Shown here: positions 5,327-39,104 of the stretch, piece by piece
Position numbering within the stretch: the stretch's first letter is position 1
Layout of the letters: each line of letters begins with the position of its first letter
NCBI GenBank assembly: GCA_027858735.1
Contig: JAQICC010000140.1
Location: 1-41,391, forward strand
Reading direction: 5' to 3'
Origin: Salinivirgaceae bacterium
GTDB lineage: Bacteria > Bacteroidota > Bacteroidia > Bacteroidales > SZUA-534
DNA: 41,391 nt
Position numbers and translations under genes: made by a program
The notes under the pieces: model-generated
The model's input: only the letters and a program-made list of their open reading frames with translations
What the model was told of the DNA's origin: nothing
The model's database searches: none

Positions 5327-6511
5327 GTGAAAGCAACTGTAAATATTTTTATAACCTTAATTGTATTGGTGATTCTTTCTTTTAAAAGCTCTGCCAATGC
5401 GCAATTAGAAAAAATCGATTCGCTAAGTGAATATTCCTATATATCGCTTTTAACTTGCGACCCGGGTGATCAGCTTTATTCAGTATTTGGTCATAGTGCC
5501 ATTGGGGTGGTCGATCCTGAGCAAAAACTTGCGGTGGTTTTTAACTACGGAACCTTTAGTTTTAAGGTAGCGTTTTTTTATGCAAAGTTTGCTTCTGGTA
5601 AATTGTTGTATCAATTAAGTGCGGTGCCATATCAGCGATTTTTACGAGAGTACAAGTATGAACAGCGAATGGTGAATGAGGATATTCTGAACCTCTCAAC
5701 GTATCAAAAACAAAGGTTATTTGATTTATTAAAGGAGAACTATAAACCTGAAAACAGAAAATATCAATACGATTTCTTTTTTGATAATTGCGCCACCCGA
5801 ATTCTCGATATTTTTTACGAAGCTCTGGATGATAGTTTGCAATATATAGCGGCTAATAATGCTGAAATAAAAACACACCGCAATTTAATCGATGAATGCT
5901 TAGTTGATAGTTATTGGAGCGATTTAGGGATAGATATTGTTTTAGGATCGGTAATAGACCGGCCTACAACTGATAGAGAGAAGTCTTTTTTACCTGATTA
6001 CCTTTCAGAATATATAAATAATTGTACTGTCGAGGGAAAACCCTTCGTTAGGACAAGTAGAAAGTTGGTGAAAGAATCCGCTACTTTTAAAGCAACACCT
6101 TGGTTGGTGCGACCCCAACTGGTATTTTGGGTTTTATTTATTATGGTAACATTACTCACCATATTATTCCGTTCAAAACCGTGGGTTATTGGCGACCGCA
6201 TTGTATTTGGTGTATTTGGTATTTTAGGCATAATCGTATTCCTTATGATGTTTGCAACAGATCATGATGCCGCAGCAAAAAACTTTAACATTATTTGGGC
6301 ACATCCACTCTATCTTGTCTATGCATGGCTTATTGGGAGTAAGCATAAAAAAGCCCTAAAATGGGCATCGATTGTCATACTAGCTGTTAACATTCTTGTT
6401 TTGTTTGGCTGGAATACTATACCACAGATGTACCATATTGCTTTTATTCCACTAATTGGTATTATTATTTTACGAAGCGGAATAATCGCTTTAAGGTATA
6501 AATGGGCTTAA
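5327..6511 (+). CDS. DUF4105 (Lnb N-terminal-like) membrane protein
   Basis: A 394-residue protein with a signal peptide (residues 1-25, ending SSANAQ), an extracytoplasmic domain to about residue 260, and roughly five hydrophobic helices at the C-terminus (about 266-390). The first half has the DUF4105 hallmarks: LLTCDPGDQLYSVFGHSAIGV with its conserved His, FNYGTFSF, and YDFFFDNCATRILD with a conserved Asn-Cys. The His and Cys suggest a papain-like/NlpC-type fold, though activity is unproven. A GTG start is used because no in-frame ATG lies nearby. It follows the BRO remnant by 11 bp and precedes the cyclophilin-like gene by 22 bp. Confidence 0.8.
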   Translation: MKATVNIFITLIVLVILSFKSSANAQLEKIDSLSEYSYISLLTCDPGDQLYSVFGHSAIGVVDPEQKLAVVFNYGTFSFKVAFFYAKFASGKLLYQLSAVPYQRFLREYKYEQRMVNEDILNLSTYQKQRLFDLLKENYKPENRKYQYDFFFDNCATRILDIFYEALDDSLQYIAANNAEIKTHRNLIDECLVDSYWSDLGIDIVLGSVIDRPTTDREKSFLPDYLSEYINNCTVEGKPFVRTSRKLVKESATFKATPWLVRPQLVFWVLFIMVTLLTILFRSKPWVIGDRIVFGVFGILGIIVFLMMFATDHDAAAKNFNIIWAHPLYLVYAWLIGSKHKKALKWASIVILAVNILVLFGWNTIPQMYHIAFIPLIGIIILRSGIIALRYKWA

Positions 6512-21080: not shown

Positions 21081-21833
21081 CTACAAAGAAAGATGTTTTA
21101 ATACCGATTCTTTTCTTTGTCGCGAGACAGCAACTGTTGTTCCGTTGTGAAGTAATAAATGGCCTCCATTTGATTTTTCGAATGACTTTACAAATTTTAA
21201 ATTGACAAGGTGCGATTGATGCACTCTAATAAAGTCATATTCATTGAGAAGCTCCTCAAATTCTTTTAAGGTACGCGTGACAAGTACTTTTTTACCATCG
21301 GCTAAATAAACATGGGTGTAATTATTTTCCCCCTGGCATCGAATTATCTCTGAAACCTTCACAAACTCTATCCTTTCCATTGAAGGTAGGCCTATTCGTT
21401 TTTCTGTATTTTGAACGTTAGCATAAAAAGTTTCCAACCTGGAATTAATTGATTCCTTTTCGGTATTAATTTTCAACAATGCCTTCTCAACGGCATTTTT
21501 TAATTCGATAACGCTAATTGGTTTTAACAAATAATCTAAGGCGCAAAAACGAATTGCTTTTATGGCATATTGATCATAAGCGGTAACAAAAATAACTTCG
21601 AAGTTACGATTCGGAATACAGTCGAGTAATTTAAAGCCATCGCCATTAGGCAGATGTATATCTAAAAACACCAATTGAGGTTTTTGCTCTTTTATAAGGT
21701 CTATTCCCTGAATGGCATCTTCAGCCATTCCAACAATATTGACCGACGAACAGTGCTTTTTCAATAAATTGTTAAGGTGCAAACGATTATTTTCCTCATC
21801 CTCAATAATAACTGCTTTTACAAACACACTCAT
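21081..21833 (-). CDS. LytTR-family response regulator
   Basis: A 250-residue two-domain regulator. The receiver (1-125) has the acidic pair in VIIEDEENN, the phospho-acceptor Asp58 in LVFLDIHLPNGDG, the Thr in FVTAYDQYA, and the Lys in YLLKPIS. Residues 140-250 form a LytTR DNA-binding domain (ERIEFVKVSEIIRCQGENNY, FIRVHQSHLVNLKFV, LHNGTTVAVSRQRK). It lies 61 bp downstream of the S41 protease with no promoter visible between, so it is probably co-transcribed with it, and its partner kinase is the next gene but one. Its likely targets are the 9-12-9 direct repeats upstream of those two genes. A small hairpin (21053-21070) follows. Confidence 0.93.
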   Translation of the reverse strand: MSVFVKAVIIEDEENNRLHLNNLLKKHCSSVNIVGMAEDAIQGIDLIKEQKPQLVFLDIHLPNGDGFKLLDCIPNRNFEVIFVTAYDQYAIKAIRFCALDYLLKPISVIELKNAVEKALLKINTEKESINSRLETFYANVQNTEKRIGLPSMERIEFVKVSEIIRCQGENNYTHVYLADGKKVLVTRTLKEFEELLNEYDFIRVHQSHLVNLKFVKSFEKSNGGHLLLHNGTTVAVSRQRKESVLKHLSL

Positions 21834-23607: not shown

Positions 23608-23650
23608 TTTAGATTAATATTTAGACAGAAGCCAGTTTCAATTGGCATGC

Positions 23651-23716
23651 TAAATATAAAAAGCATTTTTTGCTTGAAAAACCTTAAACTAGAATCTGGT
23701 ATATATGAACTAGAAT
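23651..23716 (-). promoter_or_regulatory. Promoter of the S41 protease with a 9-12-9 direct repeat (candidate LytTR-regulator site)
   Basis: Written on the plus strand, AACTAGAAT (23687-23695), 12 bp (ctggtatatatg), then AACTAGAAT again (23708-23716), a perfect direct repeat with a 21-bp period. On the minus strand the core promoter follows: TTTT (23678-23681), 19 bp, TATATTTA (23651-23658). The repeat ends 29 bp before the -7 box, the same as in the kinase promoter. Confidence 0.75.
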
Positions 23717-23743
23717 TTAGCATAATTAAAAGCAGACAACAAT

Positions 23744-25519
23744 CTATTTTTCCAATGAATACTTAATTTTAACAATCGTTCCTGATAATGAATCAGAATG
23801 CTTATCAATAATGTCCAAACTAAGTTCAGAATTATACTGCTCCTTAATAATTTGTATTCTCCGTTCAGTTAATGATATTCCCTTTCCATTTTTTCCTGAA
23901 TTATCCTTCTCAAAGCCCTTTCCATTATCTTCAATTTCACATATTAGGAATTCATCCTGCTGAAAAACTCTAAAGTCAATAATTCCATTTGATTTCATCC
24001 CGCTTATTCCGTGAATAACTGCATTTTCAACAAAAGGCTGAAAAAGCAAACCGGGAATTTCTATATTATAGATATCAAGGTTTTTACCAACGTCAATAGA
24101 ATATTGAAATTTAAACCTGAGCTTTTCTAATTCAAGATAAGTTGTTATTAATTTTATTTCTTCTTCAAGAGGAATTAATACTTTCTCAGAATTTACTAAG
24201 ACCTTTCGCATTAAACCGGCAAACATAGATATATACTCATTTGCTTCATCTGACTTATTCTCAGAAATAAGGTGTTGAATAGAGTTTAAGGTGTTAAACA
24301 AAAAATGAGGATTCAGCTGTGCTCTGATGGCTCGTAATTCCATTTGCATCAATTCTCTCTTACGCAGTTCTCTCTTTTTTAGTTGATTGTTTTTTATGAA
24401 AAAAAACAACCATAAAATCAATGAAACGAAAATAATAATAGCACCAATGTATAACAGGGAATAATCCTTTTCTTTAACTTTTATTTGGGAGTATTCTTTT
24501 TCATAGTTTTTTATAATCTCATCTAATTGAGGATAAATAATGCCAGCATTTTCAATAGTTTGGTTTTTATACAAGTTTATCAATTGAGAATTTCCTCCCG
24601 ATTTAATAAGATATTGAATAAAAGAAGCTCCAAGTATACTAACCGTTTCGTCATGATAATTGAAAGGATTTTGCCATATGTCAAAAAGACTAATGGAATC
24701 AAGTAGCAATTTTTGCTTTACCTTTTCCAATGGTAATCTCTCATTTTCAGCGAAGTAATTTGCTATTCCTTCGTCAATAAGGGCCTTTTTAATTGTTGGG
24801 TGGTAATTTATTTCAAGAAATAAATGAGAAAGTGCATGGCCAGGATTATTATCAACATAATCATTTATAATACACAAGTTGGGTTTGGCATTATGTGGAA
24901 ATTTGCCAGTAGCATCAAATCCTGTTTTTAGGTCATTCCAAACAAAATAGTCAATTATTTTAAAGGGCAAGGTATCCAATTTTCTTGTAAGTAATTTATA
25001 TTTCATTTCCCTTTCTTTCATATATTCTTTAGGATTTTCTAGTTCACTTATATCCTGAAAATGAAACCTTATTTGTTTTGCTTCTTTAACGGTCCACTTG
25101 AAACTCAACTGGTTCATTTGAAAACTATTCAAAAAATCTTTAGCCTGATTTACAGAATTTGTTGTTGCGCCAATAAAAACGGTTTCAAATAAATGGCTTT
25201 TTGCATTTGAAAAATCACCTGTCATAAAATAACTCTCTCCTAAATATGCGTGACTCCAGGCCTTTACCCAGTTAGTTTTCGAACTAGTTCCTTTTTCCAA
25301 ATAAGGGAGAGCTGTTTCAAATTCATCTAATGCAGTATAAGCTCGACCTATAAGCGAATTTAAATTTTTATCTTCAGGATTATTTTTTAATTTCTCTAAA
25401 CCAACAGTAACAACACCTTGATAATTGCGACTACCAAAAAGTTGCGAAATGGTATCGCGTTCCTGTCCATAAACCGAAACAGAAATAATTAATGCAAGCA
25501 AATAAATAAGATTTTTCAT
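23744..25519 (-). CDS. LytS-type sensor histidine kinase with TPR and inactive gluzincin (peptidase MA-like) sensor domain
   Basis: A 591-residue membrane kinase. It has a signal peptide (1-19), TPR-like repeats (about 30-135), then a domain resembling peptidase MA-type metalloproteases (about 140-340): NNPGHALSHLFLEINYHP with HALSH at 228-232 where active enzymes have HExxH, ALIDEGIANYF with the third-ligand Glu250, and SILGASFIQYLIKSGG as the following helix. A TM helix spans about 354-375. The cytoplasmic part has the His_kinase motif QLNPHFLFNTLNS (His405), the N-box FQPFVENAVIHG and the ATP-binding DNGKGF. The catalytic Glu of the protease motif is Ala, so I infer a non-hydrolytic sensor. 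Its partner is the LytTR regulator at 21081. Confidence 0.88.
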   Translation of the reverse strand: MKNLIYLLALIISVSVYGQERDTISQLFGSRNYQGVVTVGLEKLKNNPEDKNLNSLIGRAYTALDEFETALPYLEKGTSSKTNWVKAWSHAYLGESYFMTGDFSNAKSHLFETVFIGATTNSVNQAKDFLNSFQMNQLSFKWTVKEAKQIRFHFQDISELENPKEYMKEREMKYKLLTRKLDTLPFKIIDYFVWNDLKTGFDATGKFPHNAKPNLCIINDYVDNNPGHALSHLFLEINYHPTIKKALIDEGIANYFAENERLPLEKVKQKLLLDSISLFDIWQNPFNYHDETVSILGASFIQYLIKSGGNSQLINLYKNQTIENAGIIYPQLDEIIKNYEKEYSQIKVKEKDYSLLYIGAIIIFVSLILWLFFFIKNNQLKKRELRKRELMQMELRAIRAQLNPHFLFNTLNSIQHLISENKSDEANEYISMFAGLMRKVLVNSEKVLIPLEEEIKLITTYLELEKLRFKFQYSIDVGKNLDIYNIEIPGLLFQPFVENAVIHGISGMKSNGIIDFRVFQQDEFLICEIEDNGKGFEKDNSGKNGKGISLTERRIQIIKEQYNSELSLDIIDKHSDSLSGTIVKIKYSLEK

Positions 25520-25568
25520 GATTTAAACATTTGATATAAGGTTACAAATACTGCTGTAATCTATTGTG

Positions 25569-25634
25569 CAAATGTAAATAGTATTGATTTGATAAAAAAC
25601 CTATACCTAGAATCTGGTATTTATGAGAGAGGAT
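25569..25634 (-). promoter_or_regulatory. Promoter of the sensor kinase with a 9-12-9 direct repeat (candidate LytTR-regulator site)
   Basis: Plus-strand ACCTAGAAT (25605-25613), 12 bp (ctggtatttatg), then the degenerate half AGAGAGGAT (25626-25634). On the minus strand TTTT (25596-25599), 19 bp, TACATTTG (25569-25576). From CTAGAAT through TATG the element is nearly identical to the one upstream of the protease gene, and the distance to the -7 box is the same 29 bp. Confidence 0.7.
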
Positions 25635-25699
25635 TTGGTATTGAAACCTTTAATGTTCTAATAAACAATTAATATTATAGATTCTAAAAAATTACACTT

Positions 25700-37028: not shown

Positions 37029-39104
37029 TTATACAATGTATTTGTAATCGGACGGAATTGTTATTTCTACGGAGCCTCCTTTAGGATTTTCACTAGTACC
37101 AAGGTCTCTGTATTTTATTGCAATTTTGTATATATTATGTTGGTTGAAATAAGAAACTATTCGGGCCATCATTTGCATATTTTTGGTGTGCGAATCCATC
37201 GATCCTTCTAAGTTGCGATATAATCCAGTGTCCGATATCATTATGAATATTCCTTTCCCATTAACATGATCAATTGTAATTTCAATTCGCCCACCTGTAT
37301 TTTTAGGCAAAACACTTTTTTTTAAAGCACTTTCAATAAAACTAAATAATATGAGCTTAGGAACTTTTTGACCTTTTATTACTCCGGGTCCAACAATAAA
37401 ATCGTAGTCGAATTTTTCTTTAAACCGAAACTTTTCGAGGTTTAAATAATTTTTCACATAGTCAATTTCTTCTTCAAGAGAACGTGAAAAATCATCAAGT
37501 GTAATGATCGATTCGCGTAAGAATTTTGCAAAAAGACCAAGGTTTGAGTAGGCTACTTTGCGTTCGTCTTTGTTAATAGAGAAACTTATTGAGTTTAAAG
37601 CATTAAACAAAAAGTGCGGATCAAGTTGATTGCGAATTAACTCCATTTGCATTTGATAAAACTTTTCATTGTCGTCTTTAATTTGGTCAACTTGATTATA
37701 ATGAATTTTTCTAATAATAAAATACACGAAGTAAAAGCTTAAAACAGAGGCTATGTAAACTAAATACTGTAACCAGTAGTACTTGTTTTTTGAATAGCTA
37801 ATTAAGTATTGTTGGTTATGGTTTTGTAATGAAAGCATATGACCAGAATCTTGGTTTTGTTTTACCGAGAAGCTAACTTTTTGCACGTTTAAACCTGGGA
37901 TTTCTATTTTAACAGGATTCGAGAAATTATTGCTGTAAATGGTTAATCGATTATTTTCAACAATAATAGGCTCTTCATGTCCATCATTATCAATGTCTAA
38001 AAATGCCACCTGATTTATGGGAGCATGCATGCGCACCTTATTCTTAAGCGTTAAGTCTGGACTGAATTGAGAAATTTCGCCATTTTTTTTAAATAGTAAT
38101 ATTTGATCCCAAAGTGCCCTTTTGGGGTCAAATATGAACCCTCCAGGAGACATTTTTTGTTGTTGAATGATGTCACTATTTCTATTCATGATTGTTAATT
38201 GAGAATGCCCTTCTTTTTTTAAGGGCCAACTTAAAACGCCAATAAAATTTTCTGGTTCCGATTCTACTGGAAATGTAGCAGTTACCGACATTCTATTTTC
38301 AAATAGAGCAGGAACCATATAATAACTTAAATCGTTCTGCAACACAACAGAAGTAGAATATTGTGCTTGTTCTCGAGGTGATGCCCACGCCTGATTTGTG
38401 CTATTTAAGGTTGCCAAAAATATCTCAGGGAACTGATCCTTGTCAAAATCATAAATTATCGGGCTTCCAACCAACTGCAGTCCAAGTTCAGGTGATTTAA
38501 GAAGTGTATCGTTAGCAATATCGTAGGCAAATACACAACGAGGCGTCTCTGAAAATCTACTATTAACAGAGAAAATAACCTCGCCAAATCCGTCATTATT
38601 CAAGTCAGCTACTCCACCTGAATGAATAAATATATAACTAAAGTTTGTGTTGATACCAAATTCGTGAATGATTAGTTTCTCGGGCAGAAACTGATTACTT
38701 GATCCTGGAATAAGTCCATATAGACATAAGCAATTTCGATAAAATGAGAATGTATATATTTCATTAATACTATCTTTATTATAATCTCCCGATATAAAAT
38801 CGAAATTTTCAGCTACTTCCCCTTCCAAATACCAAACGTTTTGATACTCCCCTGAGCTTGAATACTGGTTTATTACAGGTTGTCTATTGTCGGATAAATG
38901 ATAGTATATAAATTCTTCAGAATTTTGGTCGTTATCAACATCAATATATGCAATTTTTTGTCCATCGGCTAAAGTTTCGAAAGTACCATTAAAAACTTTT
39001 GCTCTATATTTTTCCAGCTGTTTGGGTTGAATAAAATAACCAACTGCAAGGCCAAGCATTGCAACACCAATTCTAATAAACCATTTGTTTGAGATTGATA
39101 GCAT
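37029..39104 (-). CDS. Orphan FG-GAP/VCBS-repeat histidine kinase with degenerate ATPase domain
   Basis: A 691-residue protein with an N-terminal TM helix (about 8-25), a large extracytoplasmic part, a second TM helix (about 445-465), and a LytS-like kinase region. The outside part has at least five Asp-rich FG-GAP-type calcium loops: DVDNDQNSE (55), DYNKDSINE (107), DLNNDGFGE (167), DFDKDQFPE (219) and DIDNDGHEE (370), suggesting a seven-bladed propeller. The phospho-acceptor motif QLDPHFLFNALNS (His497) is intact. In the ATP domain, however, the N-box reads FSFIESALKKS (Ser592 instead of Asn), DTGLY replaces DNGxG, and no GxGL is seen. So kinase activity is doubtful. No response regulator is adjacent. 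Confidence 0.85.
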   Translation of the reverse strand: MLSISNKWFIRIGVAMLGLAVGYFIQPKQLEKYRAKVFNGTFETLADGQKIAYIDVDNDQNSEEFIYYHLSDNRQPVINQYSSSGEYQNVWYLEGEVAENFDFISGDYNKDSINEIYTFSFYRNCLCLYGLIPGSSNQFLPEKLIIHEFGINTNFSYIFIHSGGVADLNNDGFGEVIFSVNSRFSETPRCVFAYDIANDTLLKSPELGLQLVGSPIIYDFDKDQFPEIFLATLNSTNQAWASPREQAQYSTSVVLQNDLSYYMVPALFENRMSVTATFPVESEPENFIGVLSWPLKKEGHSQLTIMNRNSDIIQQQKMSPGGFIFDPKRALWDQILLFKKNGEISQFSPDLTLKNKVRMHAPINQVAFLDIDNDGHEEPIIVENNRLTIYSNNFSNPVKIEIPGLNVQKVSFSVKQNQDSGHMLSLQNHNQQYLISYSKNKYYWLQYLVYIASVLSFYFVYFIIRKIHYNQVDQIKDDNEKFYQMQMELIRNQLDPHFLFNALNSISFSINKDERKVAYSNLGLFAKFLRESIITLDDFSRSLEEEIDYVKNYLNLEKFRFKEKFDYDFIVGPGVIKGQKVPKLILFSFIESALKKSVLPKNTGGRIEITIDHVNGKGIFIMISDTGLYRNLEGSMDSHTKNMQMMARIVSYFNQHNIYKIAIKYRDLGTSENPKGGSVEITIPSDYKYIV

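Follow-up and report, generated by a model that had tools for sequence, protein, structure and literature searches.

Two promoters in the window (the whole stretch of DNA analysed, 41,391 nt) each carry a 12-nt half-site repeated with a period of 21, at the same distance from a Bacteroidetes-type −7 box. Judging from the sequence, we put at roughly 75% the probability that these are activator sites centred near −59 and bound by the product of the adjacent LytTR regulator gene, which would exert positive feedback on the kinase gene, the protease gene and probably its own. The genome measures 5.99 Mb in 452 contigs (98.89% complete), one of which makes up the window. Kinase, S41 peptidase and LytTR regulator genes are arranged head to tail, in this order, on the minus strand. 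The kinase is preceded by a gap of 180 nt and separated from the peptidase by 136 nt, and the regulator follows the peptidase after 61 nt. The features concerned are:

23744..25519, minus strand: histidine kinase (PF06580) with a signal-peptide-like start, a TPR-like and peptidase-MA-like outer region and a membrane segment
21895..23607, minus strand: S41 peptidase with a Big_5 domain
21081..21833, minus strand: receiver–LytTR response regulator (domain search) with the motif FIRVHQSHL, the presumed binder
25628..25639, minus strand: kinase promoter, distal half-site ACCAAATCCTCT, about −75 to −64
25607..25618, minus strand: kinase promoter, proximal half-site ACCAGATTCTAG, about −54 to −43
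25596..25599, minus strand: kinase promoter, TTTT, presumed −33 region, with a 19-nt spacer to the −7 box
25569..25576, minus strand: kinase promoter, −7 box TACATTTG, exact TAnnTTTG, predicted start near 25564
23710..23721, minus strand: protease promoter, distal half-site GCTAAATTCTAG, about −75 to −64
23689..23700, minus strand: protease promoter, proximal half-site ACCAGATTCTAG, about −54 to −43
23678..23681, minus strand: protease promoter, TTTT, presumed −33 region, with a 19-nt spacer to the −7 box
23651..23658, minus strand: protease promoter, −7 box TATATTTA, one letter off TAnnTTTG, predicted start near 23646

On the transcribed (minus) strand the kinase element reads ACCAAATCCTCT-N9-ACCAGATTCTAG and the peptidase element GCTAAATTCTAG-N9-ACCAGATTCTAG. 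The proximal 12-mer is identical in both promoters; the distal half-site agrees with it at 9 of 12 positions in the protease pair and 8 of 12 in the kinase pair. Neither element has a third copy at the 12 bases another 21 nt upstream. The original prediction had described identical 9-bp repeats with a 12-bp spacer at both promoters. The sequences it quoted lie where it placed them and CTAGAATCTGGTAT is indeed conserved between the promoters, but the identity is true of the protease promoter only (AACTAGAAT twice), because the kinase pair (ACCTAGAAT versus AGAGAGGAT) agrees at 5 of 9 positions. The 9-12-9 frame was therefore dropped for the kinase promoter and replaced by the better 12-mer, period-21 frame. 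According to PMC4847170, a LytTR site consists of two repeats of 9–11 nt, direct or inverse, with 11–13 nt between them, a rule with which the period of 21 agrees in both elements.

The −7 boxes are those of Bacteroidetes housekeeping (sigma A) promoters, exactly so for the kinase and with one letter off for the protease: TAnnTTTG is the −7 consensus of the Flavobacterium housekeeping sigma factor, where it occupies −12 to −5 (PMC9723704). Placing the boxes at these positions predicts the starts and the half-site positions listed above, and puts the centre of each element at about −59, upstream of the −33 region and close to −60. Exactly 30 nt separate the proximal 12-mer from the −7 box in both promoters. 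The 29 bp previously given for this distance amount to 28 intervening bases in the 9-bp frame, although the distance is, as claimed, equal in the two. Similarly, the predicted TTTT is present in both promoters with a 19-nt spacer to the −7 box, but lies 7 nt from the half-site and does not abut it. The −33 consensus is TTTG, and both window promoters have TTTT instead. A scan for sigma-70 promoters and terminators was left unused, having returned fewer sites than shuffled sequence (19 versus 30 and 1 versus 3.7, respectively).

When the two 200-nt upstream regions are aligned without gaps, the promoters share 53 of 72 positions (score 34). In 1000 dinucleotide shuffles the mean score was 11.3 and the largest 17, so that 0 of 1000 reached 34; outside the 72-nt stretch the same alignment yields 23 of 90 identities. 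A genome-wide search with the 28-nt element returned 2 matches with no mismatch, which are the two window promoters, none with one or two mismatches and 4 with three (2 for the reversed-pattern control). The original prediction had staked itself against many copies at non-promoter positions, and no such scatter was seen for the full element. Since the full element is found only here, the adjacent regulator is the likeliest binder. Shorter pieces of the element are less distinctive. The 9-mer by itself occurs in the window about as often as expected by chance (18 places at no more than one mismatch, 16.8 expected), and the 14-mer CTAGAATCTGGTAT alone has 51 genome-wide matches with at most two mismatches (15 for the control). 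Among the 49 of these outside the window, all six for which the DNA was read lie inside ORFs and 12 are one dispersed repeat. This repeat (L177–L179 and 9 further places in the genome, G000) holds CTAAAATCTAGTAT and ATACGAATTTCATTCGTA; there are 12 exact copies of its 14-mer, several of them near contig ends.

The neighbourhood of the elements is that of a LytTR-type operator, as PF04397 (LytTR) matches the regulator at 21081–21833 with an E-value of 1.3e-20. The gap between protease and regulator is only 61 nt, so the protease promoter may also serve the regulator, and the two genes would then be co-transcribed; TATTTTTA within this gap could nevertheless mark a promoter of the regulator's own. 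We propose that the sensor kinase would phosphorylate the adjoining regulator (21081–21833), and that two regulator molecules would sit on the same face of the DNA, one at each half-site (a period of 21 being two helical turns). Bound just upstream of the −33 region, the regulator would aid housekeeping RNA polymerase at the TAnnTTTG-type −7 box. The phosphorylated regulator would switch on kinase and protease, and probably the regulator as well, which would amount to local positive feedback. The window holds a second PF06580 histidine kinase (37029–39104), whose outer part contains FG-GAP repeats and which has no LytTR gene next to it.

The outer region of the kinase apparently resembles a dead metallopeptidase that has been fused to the kinase and is used as a sensor, because HALSH (residues 228–232) takes the place of HExxH while DEGIANYF is kept. 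Residues 1–356 (24452–25519) resemble stand-alone, peptidase MA proteins in a few genomes, and all five homologues found of this region have HExxH and the downstream EG-A-Y motif; the HExxH of an active peptidase MA (gluzincin) is absent from the kinase. PF13485 (Peptidase_MA_2) matched one of two scanned homologues (9.8e-06, below the curated cut-off) and did not match the window's own sensor region, for which a single-sequence structure prediction was poor (mean pLDDT 38.2). A dead-peptidase sensor, if this is what it is, would allow a concrete guess at the signal, namely peptides or a peptidase substrate.

Searches for an orthologous locus in which both promoters could be footprinted found none. 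The full kinase (E ≤ 1e-50) was recovered from 2 of 60 relatives, namely this genome and one that matches residues 303–575 only, and a scan of named genomes gave two loci, both matching the kinase part only. The sensor region was found in 4 of 295 genomes of the order and 2 of 395 of the phylum (this genome counted in both), and the protease in 3 of 295 genomes of the order, this one included. An ACC-type pair is missing from both other protease loci, one of which carries a low-complexity repeat past the next gene. The comparison that follows therefore rests on related regulators.

Relatives of the regulator (E ≤ 1e-55) occur in 105 of the 295 sampled genomes of the order. Around the best of them we extracted 60 regions, none longer than 13 kb and together drawn from 47 other genomes; they represent 60 of the 65 best rows (left out were G303:C269, G062:C95, G101:C61, G224:C4 and G071:C17). 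Repeats were counted without reference to any motif, at every lag from 12 to 69, in the intergenic DNA of those loci in which an ORF had by then been tagged LytTR, with at least 10 of 12 positions matching and at least three G/C. A lag of 21 gave 15 intergenic repeats near LytTR genes, some of which resemble simple repeats or coding DNA (e.g. L118 at 7832, L141 at 3710), versus a mean of 1.26 and a maximum of 5 for the other lags. In 16 regions of the window's own genome the corresponding numbers were 7 for lag 21 and at most 3 for any other lag.

The distance to the −7 box was examined across all intergenic regions of the 60 loci, as were other periods and the controls, using lag-21 repeats with at least 8 of 12 matches, a proximal copy starting with ACC and a box of the form TAnnTTT(G/A). 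In 18 of 39 repeat–box pairs the box lies 41–42 from the proximal ACC; these come from 18 different loci, which are not 18 independent events because many carry closely related regulators. Both window elements have a distance of 42, and for the 16 own-genome regions 0 of 2 fell in the 41–42 peak. With a stricter threshold of at least 9 of 12 there were 24 repeats of period 21, 13 of them with a box at 41–42, versus 3 boxed repeats for 47 other periods (13 to 60) together. Twenty 20-kb regions from 16 genomes served as controls, with L162 left in although it holds a LytTR gene and a kinase. Boxed period-21 ACC repeats made up 18 of 35 in LytTR loci and 1 of 20 in these controls (13 of 24 and 0 of 10 at the stricter threshold). 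The density of ACC-type repeats alone is similar (4.8 versus 3.5 per 10 kb), so it is the fixed −7 box that constitutes the signal. Under a loose rule that does not require ACC, at least one candidate is present in 38 of the 60 loci and none in 22, as raw counts. The proposal that the window elements are LytTR sites thus gains support from their fit to the described repeat and spacer rule (PMC4847170) and from the concentration of period-21 repeats with this −7-box offset at LytTR genes, with near absence from the controls.

Two further arrangements were noticed. L114 lies in the window's own genome, on a contig (C140) where a LytTR gene is also present, and has several intergenic GTAGGA-type copies at about 5890–6020, some 20–21 bases apart. 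A recurring series (L083, L086, L088, L089, L096, L099, L152 and others) consists of a kinase of about 1060 aa and a LytTR regulator, often followed by a small protein of about 155–170 aa and a large one of about 1210–1250 aa; ACCGTTAACTGA-type repeats lie directly behind the regulator gene.

The letters of the half-sites vary between loci. Those of L125, L082 and L151 are similar to the window's. L125 has ACCAAATTCTCA and ACCAAATACTCA upstream of a gene–kinase–regulator series, and many other relatives have (A/G)CCGNNAACT. L082 carries ACCAAATCCTAT and two further copies, at another distance from the nearest −7-like box. L151 parallels the window in having two separate promoters at one LytTR locus, each with three CGAATTCTA-type copies (one copy being CGGATTCTA) at 41–42 from the −7 box. 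The residue that follows H in FxRxH-x-S is K with AAC-type sites in 28 of 37 rows and Q with TTC-type sites in 6, with 3 exceptions, in a set where half-sites were framed by hand, the AAC class is loosely defined and L082 was entered by eye despite its differently spaced box. Six rows (L087, L133, L141, L149, L153 and L111 of the own genome) had been dropped as doubtful before this count, including two that go against the trend, L087 (Q, CCATTTGCTC) and L141 (K, CCATTCACTC). Eight further Q-type loci (L081, L085, L090, L091, L092, L119, L137 and L147) gave no candidate. We regard the covariation as a lead, not a test, because of the hand framing and because the residue changes just twice on the tree. 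The residue at the equivalent place in AgrA, N201, interacts with DNA (PMC4227749). The half-sites of many relatives end in TAACTGA, and a link to the TAACTGA direct repeats of PMC4679880 was considered; none was made, because the repeats described there are tandem heptamers, mostly just before start codons.

Could the elements be LytTR sites that serve another LytTR protein of this genome, or at which the bound regulator represses? The genome has 19 LytTR domains, two paralogues, L103 and L104, likewise contain the HQS motif and have ATTCA-type repeats nearby, and a LytTR repressor is on record in CoxC, with three repeats over the −35 box (PMC11347149). We nevertheless consider this unlikely, given that the full element occurs twice beside this regulator and is matched, perfectly or nearly, nowhere else in the genome, and that the half-sites lie upstream of −33, as at activated LytTR promoters (PMC4227749, PMC11347149).

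Local duplication, leaving repeats that have no regulator, would account for the likeness of two promoters 1.9 kb apart, which extends to the 30 nt between half-site and −7 box. It is quite improbable in our judgement: the likeness ends at functional limits (23 of 90 beyond them), in other genomes, unrelated promoters at LytTR loci show this geometry too, and the 21-base repeat inside each promoter would be left unexplained. Least credible of all is that another kind of transcription factor has its sites near LytTR genes by chance, or that the element is a dispersed repeat; a 14-mer two mismatches away does exist in 12 copies and proteins other than LytTR regulators also use direct repeats spaced by two helical turns, but the 12-copy sequence is a longer repeat from which paired half-sites are absent (three copies read), and the 21/42 geometry goes with LytTR loci and is almost missing from the controls.

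Returning to activation by the adjacent LytTR regulator, the observations can be joined into a wider reading, which we offer tentatively and which as a whole is rather doubtful. It would combine a promoter template common to Bacteroidales LytTR systems, half-site letters coded by a regulator residue and a dead-peptidase sensor that induces the adjoining protease. The template would have half-sites from near −75 and −54, with a period of 21 and the proximal one 41–42 before the −7 box. Only the half-site letters might vary, K (in FxRxH-x-S) going with CCGNNAACT and Q with CCNNATTC; if they do keep step with one residue, targets and starts would be predictable from sequence. The sensor might have lost its catalytic glutamate and kept the domain for peptide binding. 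The newer parts are the constant geometry and the sensor domain that resembles a dead metallopeptidase; in the openings of open-access abstracts we found no paper on the DNA sites of Bacteroidales LytTR regulators or on the 21/42 template. LytTR regulators are numerous in Bacteroidales, and a geometry recognisable from sequence would give directly testable predictions of targets and starts for many uncharacterised sensor systems.

In its repeats and their spacing, the element fits the described LytTR operator, and it is most like the sites of AgrA and BtsR. The sites of BtsR (YehT) and YpdB in Escherichia coli are direct repeats, as here, and the BtsR/YehT oligonucleotide ACCGCTTAC...ACCACTCA (PMC4847170, Table 1) has ACC-type half-sites with the same period of 21, differing from the window's in the letters downstream of ACC. 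BtsR is also the best-scoring NCBIfam model for the window's regulator, but at 135.3 bits versus a cut-off of 246, so the regulator is not a BtsR equivalog. In the CoxC and RcoM operators the copies are likewise two helical turns apart (PMC11347149); three tandem copies, as found there, are also present in L082 and L151, whereas the window's elements have two. CoxC represses, its three repeats overlapping the −35 box (PMC11347149), whereas the window's half-sites lie upstream of the −33 region. At the agr P2 and P3 promoters of Staphylococcus aureus, AgrA is described as binding two direct repeats directly upstream, centred near −60 as in the window (PMC4227749). The window differs from agr in its half-site letters, in its Bacteroidetes −33/−7 promoters and in its two elements, which point the same way before separate genes. 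AgrA promoters have suboptimal spacing and lie beside the regulator's own two-component genes (PMC4227749), and the window's elements likewise lie beside two-component genes; the activation we infer at promoters with a TTTT −33 region would resemble that by AgrA at suboptimally spaced promoters (PMC4227749).
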